A stretch of 24,858 nt of DNA from the IMG/VR virus record IMGVR_UViG_3300013094_000265, positions 1-24,858 of that record; one strand, given 5' to 3'. How positions within the stretch are numbered: the stretch's first letter is position 1; every line of letters starts with the position of its first letter. The stretch is from a virus. The notes under the pieces are model-generated. The model made no database searches. It was not told the origin of the DNA and saw only the letters and a list, made by a program, of their open reading frames with translations. The position numbers and the translations under genes are program-made. This document shows, piece after piece, positions 1,168 to 4,583 of this stretch.

Positions 1168-3468
1168 TTATCCTTGAAGCCTGTTGCCACTTAGACTCTT
1201 AGTTGCTTTAACTTGCCTGTGTGCGGCATCAGCAGTATCGGCAGTATGGCTAACTAGCTTTTCTATACTTCTATTTAAGTGAACAAGCTGTTCTTTCAGG
1301 TCTTTCATGGTTACATCTGCTGTTACAGGAGCTGTTTTCTTTTGCTTATCTGCATCATCTTCTTTTTTCTCTGGAGCTTTTGGAGCTGGTGCAGGAGCTG
1401 GAGGAGGAACTGGAGGTTTTGGAATTTCTGGAACTTTAGGTATTGATTGTGTAGATAGTTTATCTTGACGCTCAAACATTGACTTATCCATAGTTTCTTT
1501 AGGAGTCGCCGCTTGAATTTGTTTCATAAGTGCTTCTTTTTCTGCAGGACTTGCAGTTGCACTCATTGTCATTGCTTGTTTTTTTAATTCGTCTAAGTTA
1601 GGTTGTTTTCCAATTAAACTTTGTGCTCCTTCTAACCCTGGCATCTTATCGCTTACATTGAAACTACCGCCTACACCTGGCATGTTTTTCATCATGTCTT
1701 GCATTTGCCCTGGCATGTTTTTCATCATGTCTTGCATTTGCGGTGTTACATTAGGCATACCTTTAGACATACTGCCTAGCATTCTTGTCATTTGATCTTT
1801 AGTAGCAACCATTTCTTCGCCGTGCAGTATTGCAGGTGTACCTTTACCAAATTGCTCAAACATACCACCAAACGATCCACCTTTTATAAAATCATCAACA
1901 CCTGGACTACCGCCCGCACGTTTAACTATGTTACCGTTTTCATCAATTTTAGTTTTAGTTTCTGTGGGTTGTGGTTTTAATCCTACTGCATCTTGTGCAG
2001 TTGTACCTATTTTATCTATACCGCCACTAACTTTGCCAGCAGTGCCAACTGTATCAGACAAAAATTTATTAAATTTGTTTAAATTTTCAGAAGTAGGAGC
2101 AAGTTTATCATTAACATCTTTAAATTTACTAGCTAGCCCAGCACTCACATTGCCAAGAGCCATATCTGCAGAATTTAGTGCTCTGCCTGTTCCTGCACCC
2201 GCTACATCTTTACCAGTATCTACATCTTTACCTTGTGTTTGTCTATCTGCGGCACGCTGTTGTGTAGCAATAACTTGTTCGCTAGTTGCTGGTTTGCCTG
2301 TTTGTTGTTGAATTAATCCAGCAGTTGCTAGCTTGCCTTGAATTTCTTTGTTCTCGGAGTACATTTTTCTAGCGGCGTCACCACTAGCACTACGGTCAAA
2401 TGCTAACTTATCTCTATATTCTTTACTTGATTGATATTCTACTACGTGCTGTTTAGCTAGTTCCATTGCATCTGCGGCAGCTTTTTTCTCTGCATCTGTA
2501 CGAGCATTCATTTGTTGCTTCAATGCATTTTCAAATTCTTTACCTGCCGGGCCTAACGCACTCATAGCGGCCGCACCTTCTTTAGTACGAACACCGCCTG
2601 TTACAATTTCACTAGCTAAATCTTGTACACCTTCACCTAATGTACCAAAAGTTAGTTGAGCTTTCTTATAGTTTTGTTGTTGCTGATCGTCCATTTGCAA
2701 CAATGTTGCTTGAACGTCTGCTTTGCGCATTTGTTTTTCAAGATCATTAGCTTGTTGTTCTTTACTCTTACCAGTAATCTTAGCTAATCGATCCATTTCA
2801 TCAGCAAGTTCGATAGCACTTTGAGTAGCACGAGCCGCACGTTCTTTATCTTGCAACATGCCTGCACGACTGTTTAATGTTACTAATGACGTTGCTTTGT
2901 TAAAATCTTCAACAGTTGTACCACTTTGCATTAACTGTTGTGCTAAACTACCTTGAACATCAGTTTGTTCAAGTACTGCTTGATTTAATTTTAATTGATT
3001 CTGTACACCTTGACTAACACCTTGGCCTAATCCAGCAAAGTCTGTGCTGTTTTTACGAACCATTTGTTGCAAATCGCCCAATTGCATATGAGCGCCAGCG
3101 GCACCTTCACGTAATTTTCCTACATCATTAGTAAAGTTAACACCAGATTTACCCATCTGGTTAATGGAATCATTAGCATCTGTTACGTATTTGGCAGTTC
3201 CTCCGAATACTTCACCTATTTTTGGAAATACTTTACTAACAATACCAGCACCATCTTGTAGTGCATCAGATGCACGATACTGACTAGTCATTAATTTGCC
3301 AGTAGAATCTGCTAGTCCAGCACCAAATCCTTTGGCGGTACTATCGCCGCCACCACTGCTTTGTTTAGGAGCAGAATTTCCTCCACCAAAGTTTCCACCA
3401 CTTCGTAGAGCATCGGCCAAATCTTGTATAGATTCTCTCGATAAGGTTACTGGTTCAGATGCGGCCAT
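1168..3468 (-). CDS. Putative tail tape-measure protein (766 aa)
   Basis: Probably the tape-measure protein that sets tail length inside the tail tube. The evidence is architectural. It is a long, mostly helical, Gln/Ala/Lys-rich protein with extended coiled-coil-like segments (about residues 110-440). Near residue 545 it carries GTPAILHGEEMVATKDQM, which resembles the GTPAxLHGxEAVVP-type motif common in tape-measure C-terminal halves. It then has Met-rich repeats, a Pro-rich linker (about 675-705, PPVPPPAPAPAPKAP) and a Lys/Asp-rich tail. At roughly 1.5 angstrom per residue, 766 aa would predict a tail near 115 nm (T4 gp29 is about 590 aa). It lies divergent from the gp26-like frameshift gene, matching the usual linkage of tail-assembly chaperone and tape measure, and directly upstream of gp20. 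AAGGA is about 12 bases from the ATG, a long spacing. An alternative is another large virion structural protein. Confidence 0.55.
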   Translation of the reverse strand: MAASEPVTLSRESIQDLADALRSGGNFGGGNSAPKQSSGGGDSTAKGFGAGLADSTGKLMTSQYRASDALQDGAGIVSKVFPKIGEVFGGTAKYVTDANDSINQMGKSGVNFTNDVGKLREGAAGAHMQLGDLQQMVRKNSTDFAGLGQGVSQGVQNQLKLNQAVLEQTDVQGSLAQQLMQSGTTVEDFNKATSLVTLNSRAGMLQDKERAARATQSAIELADEMDRLAKITGKSKEQQANDLEKQMRKADVQATLLQMDDQQQQNYKKAQLTFGTLGEGVQDLASEIVTGGVRTKEGAAAMSALGPAGKEFENALKQQMNARTDAEKKAAADAMELAKQHVVEYQSSKEYRDKLAFDRSASGDAARKMYSENKEIQGKLATAGLIQQQTGKPATSEQVIATQQRAADRQTQGKDVDTGKDVAGAGTGRALNSADMALGNVSAGLASKFKDVNDKLAPTSENLNKFNKFLSDTVGTAGKVSGGIDKIGTTAQDAVGLKPQPTETKTKIDENGNIVKRAGGSPGVDDFIKGGSFGGMFEQFGKGTPAILHGEEMVATKDQMTRMLGSMSKGMPNVTPQMQDMMKNMPGQMQDMMKNMPGVGGSFNVSDKMPGLEGAQSLIGKQPNLDELKKQAMTMSATASPAEKEALMKQIQAATPKETMDKSMFERQDKLSTQSIPKVPEIPKPPVPPPAPAPAPKAPEKKEDDADKQKKTAPVTADVTMKDLKEQLVHLNRSIEKLVSHTADTADAAHRQVKATKSLSGNRLQG
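1681..1740 (-). repeat. Tandem 33-bp repeat inside the tape-measure-like gene
   Basis: A 33-base unit (1681-1713) is followed at once by a second copy identical over 27 bases (1714-1740). On the minus strand it encodes two copies of QMQDMMKNMPG. The repeat keeps the reading frame, so copy-number change would lengthen or shorten the protein by 11 residues at a time. Confidence 0.85.
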
Positions 3469-3534: not shown

Positions 3535-4362
3535 ATGGCCAATAATCCCTTAGCACAACACTTTAGACAACCAAAAATCTTTGTAAAATTACCTAGTCAA
3601 GGAGTCTACAGCAAGCCAGGTACGATTCAAGGCGATGTTAATAGCATTCCAGTATACGGTATGACCGGCATGGATGAAATTATCATGAAAACTCCTGATG
3701 CATTATTAACTGGAGAAAGCAATATTCGTGTTATTGAAAGTTGCTGTCCTAGTATTAAGAATGCTAAAGAACTTAGTGTATTAGATACTGATTTAATTTT
3801 TACAGCTATTCGTATTGCTACTTTTGGTTCAGATATGCAAGTAGAAAAAACTTGCCAGCATTGTGGTGAGTTAGGCGAATATACTATAGATCTAAATCGT
3901 TTGATTGAGCATTTTAATCAAGTTAAGTTTGATAACAACTTAGTTTTAGATAATCTTGTAATTAAAATGCGTCCAATGACCTATGAGCAAAGCAACGATT
4001 TTGGTCTAAAGAATTTTCAACTACAACAAAAACTAGCACAAGCAAACAGAATTGAAAAAGAAGAAGAACAACAAAAAATTCTTAATGAGTTATTTGTTGA
4101 ACTAGGTGCTATGCAAAATGAATTGTATAGTCTAGCTATCGAAAGTATTCAAACTGACAAAGTCAATGTAACAGAACGTGCTTATATTAATGAGTTTTTA
4201 GAAAATTGTGATCGAAGTGTGTTTGCTAGTATCAAAGCTCAGTTTGAAAAAAATCGAGATGCATTATCATTGCCTTCATTTACAGTTGAATGTAGTGATT
4301 GTCAAGGTTCTAACGAAATTTCTGTAACAATGGATCAATCAACTTTTTTCGGACAAGCCTAA
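3535..4362 (+). CDS. gp26-like baseplate hub / tail assembly protein (0-frame product)
   Basis: 275-aa product of the unshifted frame. By appearance it belongs with T4 gp26-type baseplate hub assembly proteins, which act as chaperones for tail or baseplate assembly. I see two CxxC pairs, CQHC (107-110) and CSDC (253-256), that could form a zinc ribbon; the segment LVIKMRPMTYEQ (141-152); and a charged helical middle (160-190). The start at 3535 is fixed by AGGAG 6 bases upstream and a late octamer at 3498. The 3' end holds a programmed -1 frameshift signal: codons 270-272 (ACT TTT TTC) contain T TTT TTC, and shifting yields a 349-aa fusion. A short form plus a frameshifted long form is the arrangement of lambda G/GT and P2 E/E' chaperones. 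In T4 the genes at this point are separate 26 and 51, as I recall. The gp26 assignment is moderate; the ORF is certain. Confidence 0.6.
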   Translation: MANNPLAQHFRQPKIFVKLPSQGVYSKPGTIQGDVNSIPVYGMTGMDEIIMKTPDALLTGESNIRVIESCCPSIKNAKELSVLDTDLIFTAIRIATFGSDMQVEKTCQHCGELGEYTIDLNRLIEHFNQVKFDNNLVLDNLVIKMRPMTYEQSNDFGLKNFQLQQKLAQANRIEKEEEQQKILNELFVELGAMQNELYSLAIESIQTDKVNVTERAYINEFLENCDRSVFASIKAQFEKNRDALSLPSFTVECSDCQGSNEISVTMDQSTFFGQA

Positions 4363-4470
4363 TCGGACTCCCCGCCCAGGAAATTCAAGAAGACTTGGTT
4401 AGGCTAGACAAATACATAAAAGATTTCAAATTAGAATTATATAGAATTAGTTGGTATATGCGGGGCGGGG
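4344..4470 (+). promoter_or_regulatory. Programmed -1 ribosomal frameshift signal with pseudoknot
   Basis: The slippery heptamer T TTT TTC (4344-4350) is in the correct phase of the gp26-like frame. After a 5-base spacer (4351-4355), 4356-4366 (AGCCTAATCGG) pairs with 4395-4405 (TTGGTTAGGCT) over 11 bp, three of them G-U. In the loop, CCCCGCCC (4370-4377) is perfectly complementary to GGGCGGGG (4463-4470), giving an H-type pseudoknot with an all-GC second stem in otherwise AT-rich DNA. The second stem's 3' arm forces unusual codons (CGG, GGC, GGG). The -1 frame is open from the slip to a stop at 4581-4583. Confidence 0.85.
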
Positions 4471-4583
4471 TCACAGTAAATGACCTACTAGATCGATATA
4501 GTTACGAAGATAGAGAACTATTTTATAAAATCATTGCCGATAATTTTGAAAATACTAAAAATACCGGAATGCCATTAGTTTAA
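4350..4583 (+). CDS. C-terminal extension expressed by -1 frameshift (gp26-like fusion, 349 aa)
   Basis: 77 codons in the -1 frame, joined to residue 272 of the gp26-like protein when ribosomes slip at 4344-4350. The extension begins RTSLIGLPAQEIQEDLVRLD and contains SWYMRGGVTVNDLLDRYS, a predicted helical region. I infer it plays the part of the T segment of lambda gpGT or the E' segment of P2, linking chaperone to tape measure and tube subunits. It has no credible start of its own: its only early in-frame start-like codon is TTG at 4395 without a ribosome-binding site, and the first ATG (4458) also lacks one. In T4 the gene after 26 is 51, a baseplate hub assembly factor; whether this piece is a gp51 remnant cannot be told by eye. 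The stop overlaps the stop of the converging minus-strand gene. Confidence 0.75.
   Translation, partial: RTSLIGLPAQEIQEDLVRLDKYIKDFKLELYRISWYMRGGVTVNDLLDRYSYEDRELFYKIIADNFENTKNTGMPLV

Follow-up and report, generated by a model that had tools for sequence, protein, structure and literature searches.

The window analysed here, the whole stretch of 24,858 nucleotides of an IMG/VR virus record, carries on its plus strand a gene at positions 3535 to 4362 (TAC-N), the frame-0 product of which comprises 275 amino acids and ends at the stop codon 4360-4362. The gene belongs to the T4 gp26/gp51-type family (PF12322), its product scoring above the Pfam gathering cut-off (E 4.7e-17; 62.9 bits against a cut-off of 24.5) and matching phrog_150 as well (E 3.8e-19). 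A search of the viral fold library BFVD with an AlphaFold model of TAC-N, built from 40 relatives with a mean pLDDT of 86.5, showed a resemblance to T4-like baseplate hub assembly proteins (best TM about 0.85). A fold search of the PDB with the same model gave no convincing match, and no known or solved tail chaperone structure appeared among its results; this is no argument against membership in the chaperone family. In BFVD the model also resembled larger uncharacterised proteins of other giant phages (Special G, RSF1 and phiEaH2), and judging from the model it is possible that these are unrecognised chaperones.

Next to this gene lies a divergent neighbour of 766 amino acids (1168-3468, minus strand), which is probably a tape measure or similar virion protein. 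Searches of Pfam and PHROGs revealed no profile match of its own; by blastp it matches a virion structural protein of Kaldavass (E 9e-9), and its counterpart in RaK2 is annotated as tape-measure-like. The gene order portal, counterpart of 1168-3468 and gp26 is common to six jumbo phages.

Near the end of TAC-N, separated from the frame-0 stop by three codons, is the slippery heptamer T TTT TTC (4344-4350, plus strand), the candidate site of a -1 shift. The local reading frame is ACT TTT TTC GGA, a phase that fits -1 slippage, and a spacer of 5 nt (4351-4355) leads to the first downstream stem; the earlier note had described both the in-phase heptamer and the spacer, and both are in place. Scans of IMG/VR for relatives yielded 80 and 72 loci. 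Both parts of the gene were present in 149 loci, a set including some from the same contig and the window itself, and a non-redundant set (<95% identity) comprised 94 loci. A check of heptamer conservation across these homologous loci was positive: the sequence was exactly TTTTTTC, with exactly six T, in 149/149 two-part loci and in 94/94 non-redundant ones, and the second part always lay in the -1 frame relative to the first (149/149). TTT makes up 83% of the Phe codons in the same genes, and TTT TTC would be expected in ~14% of Phe-Phe pairs, so that conservation of the heptamer in all 149 loci is beyond chance.

The -1 frame extension, TAC-C (4350-4583, plus strand), is open for 77 codons followed by a stop, giving a predicted fusion of 349 amino acids. 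Its length is exactly 77 amino acids in all 94 non-redundant relatives, and 54% of the differences among them fall at third codon positions of the -1 frame, a mark of selection on the protein. A stop codon of the -1 frame stands directly 5' of the heptamer in 16 of the 94 loci, and in these the frame can thus be entered only there. The extension alone gave no usable match to Pfam, PHROGs or PDB sequences. The earlier note had suggested comparing it with gp51, and a profile comparison of the window's extension directly against the T4/cyanophage C-domain gave a weak match (8%); the two are linked stepwise, the window's extension profile matching those of jumbo phages (E 1.6e-17), these matching the cyanophage-type extensions (E 3.5e-5) and the latter matching the C-terminus of gp51 (E 5e-6). 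The putative homology to the T4/cyanophage C-domain rests on the jumbo-phage intermediates.

Stem 1 is formed by 4356-4366 and 4395-4405 (both on the plus strand), and its 11 bp, as proposed in the earlier note, are found in the window, three of them being G-U. Taken alone, the 65-nt fold downstream in the window shows no unusual stability (z -0.54), so the stem is supported by comparison and not by energy. The window's clade accounts for about 70% of the relatives. Among the 66 clade relatives used in the covariation test, 94.8% of cells were paired, both partners had changed in five pairs, and the doubly changed cells numbered 41, compared to 11 +- 2.8 after shuffling. To meet the worry that relatives had been selected by their pairing, the test was repeated on 69 relatives picked by protein identity only, with the same result (37 against 10 +- 2.5). 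RNAalifold finds the stem unprompted, and the 60 nt past the slip site have a mean fold z of -3.9 in this clade, compared to -0.1 to -0.5 further downstream. Codon choice in the extension appears to be constrained by stem 1: residue 4 (Leu) is always encoded by CTN and never by TTA or TTG in the window's clade, while residue 18 is, in all cases but one, AGG (Arg) or GGG (Gly). Stem 1 is largely missing from the sister clade (27 sequences; mean fold z -0.8), which keeps the heptamer and extension; the stem is thus not universal. Unrelated hairpins were found at the same place in P-SSM2 (z -3.6), S-PM2 (-5.0), Atu_ph07 (-3.0) and PA5oct (-3.1), and the same fold test gave no such hairpin after the slip site in RaK2, Kaldavass and phiM12. 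Overall, the covariation supports stem 1 as a putative downstream stimulatory structure of the window's clade, absent from the sister clade.

The second half of the pseudoknot described in the earlier note stands in the window itself, where the stem 1 loop (4370-4377, plus strand) and a downstream segment (4463-4470, plus strand) can form eight perfect G-C pairs (CCCCGCCC/GGGCGGGG). With loops of 17 and 57 nt, stem 2 is a long-range pairing between the loop and the downstream sequence and not a compact H-type knot. Its 3' strand lies within conserved Arg-Gly-Gly codons of the extension, and the G-richness there is partly a protein constraint. A helix of 8 bp at constant position did not hold up among the relatives: no more than 59.8% of cells were paired when the register was kept fixed, and the register drifts. 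We also compared the pairing of each loop with its own downstream region and with the regions of relatives. Native pairs had a mean of -11.9 kcal/mol and swapped pairs one of -10.3 kcal/mol (z about -5, ranging from -4.7 to -5.8), sequence relatedness being only partly controlled in this comparison. No such native excess was seen with non-overlapping control regions, and the excess persisted at 75% redundancy. Base composition was ruled out as its cause, shuffled loops giving z between -1.0 and 2.2. The excess was weaker in the sister clade (z -2.3, p 0.011), where a pairing scan found the best native pairing between the same two regions. On this comparison we take stem 2 in the relatives to be a long-range pairing that is real but drifts in register, a tendency rather than a fixed helix. 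Tentatively, and with some leaning towards the contrary, it can be proposed that T4-like jumbo phages possess a lineage-spanning long-range pairing between the loop past the slip site and the Arg-Gly-Gly codons ~85-100 nt downstream, which would be maintained by compensatory evolution while its register drifts, survive the loss of stem 1 and adjust how much short and how much long chaperone is made.

The arrangement extends well beyond the window's lineage. A nucleotide search of named phages gave no match, and the relatives among them were found by protein search. All seven of the named jumbo phages examined (Atu_ph07, Phosso, Kaldavass, XaC1, PA5oct, 121Q and RaK2) have the heptamer and a -1 extension, as do P-SSM2, S-PM2, KVP40 and phiW-14, while T-rich variants occupy the slip site of HTVC008M (T8) and phiM12 (T TTT TTT, T7). 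T4 carries two PF12322 genes. The product of one (gp26) covers the short profile, while that of the other (gp51) extends over the whole profile with its C-domain; matches to this C-domain lie in the -1 frame of P-SSM2, S-PM2, the pelagiphage HTVC008M and phiM12. The guess that genes 26 and 51 are the T4 equivalents was therefore a good one, gp26 being the counterpart of the short form and gp51 combining that form with the C-domain. T4 thus shares with the window a short and a long form of PF12322, but holds them as separate genes on opposite strands, where the window has one frameshifted gene. T4 gp26 still ends in ...EFFELL; its Phe pair is coded TTC TTT, which offers no canonical slippage, as though a duplication giving rise to genes 26 and 51 had been followed by loss of the slip site. 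Sphingomonas phage PAU encodes a distant PF12322 relative too, and behind it (about 2250-2470 of the compared stretch) comes an ORF in a different frame with AAGGAG and ATG ATG, which is possibly a C-domain with its own ribosome-binding site.

Taking the above together, we consider it highly probable (roughly 0.93) that one gene yields, by a -1 frameshift at U UUU UUC, a 275-aa short and a 349-aa long tail chaperone, and that these two forms with a common N-terminal part are encoded by a conserved frameshift is what the sequence comparison argues. Most ribosomes would terminate at 4360-4362 and release the short form. A minority would slip back one base at the heptamer, both tRNA-Phe re-pairing on UUU UUU, with the aid of the downstream stem and the long-range helix, and would go on to produce the long form with its 77-aa C-terminal domain; the heptamer and the downstream structure would thereby set the short:long ratio. 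Going by the analogy of lambda G/GT, the tape measure protein may be coated or chaperoned by the short form, while the C-domain of the long form may recruit the tube protein. The heptamer and its phase, the conservation of the -1 frame as protein, the covariation of stem 1 and membership in the family are demonstrated here; we infer that slippage occurs, as well as its rate and the chaperone role of the products. The frameshift and the lambda G/GT-type identification made in the earlier note are both supported by the comparison, T4 holding short and long copies of the family. Lambda gpG/gpGT uses another heptamer, however, and the window has its tape measure candidate on the other strand; to our knowledge there is no known sequence relationship between the window's chaperone and lambda gpG/gpGT.

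Could the -1 frame instead be a separate gene, translated by re-initiation or coupled translation past the frame-0 stop and never fused? The downstream frame is annotated as a gene of its own in the 121Q and Phosso records, and the earlier statement that this frame has no usable start has to be qualified, as the window contains a TTG at 4395. This codon, however, is located downstream of the start of the conserved extension, which is conserved right from the first residues past the heptamer, and 59 of the 94 relatives have no ATG, GTG or TTG upstream of extension codon 25. Conservation of the heptamer would also be needless for such a gene, and we regard this explanation as very improbable. 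Equally small is the chance that RNA polymerase, and not the ribosome, slips on the T run. The window has a T6 run, and the T runs of 8 and 7 at the same place in HTVC008M and phiM12 make transcriptional slippage possible in those two phages; yet all IMG/VR relatives have exactly six T and then C, a run that is short for slippage by a polymerase; stem 1, moreover, covaries as expected of a ribosomal stimulator.

A different matter is the function of the long form. It may be that the frameshift is real but that its product serves only baseplate hub assembly, which is the classical view of gp51, and is not a GT-like tape measure chaperone. The annotations of T4 gp26 and gp51 speak of hub and hub assembly proteins, whereas the design of a short and a long form and the two-gene split in T4 mirror the tail chaperones. 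Moreover, the tape measure gp29 is itself part of the hub pathway of T4, so that the hub and chaperone views overlap. A role in the hub only is unlikely in our opinion, although it deserves far more weight than either explanation that dispenses with ribosomal slippage, and the tail chaperone reading is preferred.

A 2022 study by Vladimirov and colleagues is said to describe frameshifting for several groups of T4-like phages, with T4 itself having 26 and 51 as separate genes, in agreement with the idea of the earlier note. A review from 2016 had described G-T frameshifting as a conserved trait of long-tailed phages, "except T4" (PMC5009743), and T4-like tail chaperone genes were then identified by Vladimirov, Gautam and Davidson (2022, Virology 566:9-15, as cited in PMC10885494 and PMC12846349). 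According to the PRFect paper, which cites that work, some T4-like phages do not frameshift but have two genes, a short one and a longer fusion gene (PMC10885494), while the Adele paper, also citing it, refers to poly-T as a known -1 signal in TAC-N genes of T4-like phages (PMC12846349). As far as these citing papers describe them, the T4-like TACs of that study resemble the window's in belonging to the same gp26/gp51 family and in having poly-T -1 slippery sites in TAC-N. The impression in the earlier note that frameshifted chaperones were undescribed for this group thus has to be given up, going by the same citations, and our finding is a sound rediscovery in a further lineage. The TAC locus of phage Adele (Vandenendeviridae and Andersonviridae) likewise has a -1 frameshift at a T-rich motif in a myovirus TAC-N, but it concerns other phage families and the motif is GTTTTT, compared to TTTTTTC in the window (PMC12846349).

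The evidence on RNA structure and the wide sampling may be what the present analysis adds to prior work. The large independent sample confirms the T4-type hub assembly proteins as predicted frameshifted tail chaperones, a class of which T4 was long the exception, and the window's lineage contributes an RNA element with compensatory changes. Finally, annotations of jumbo phages can be corrected, since several public records split these genes or drop the extension: the fusion is divided into two genes in 121Q and Phosso, and the extension is unannotated in PA5oct and RaK2.
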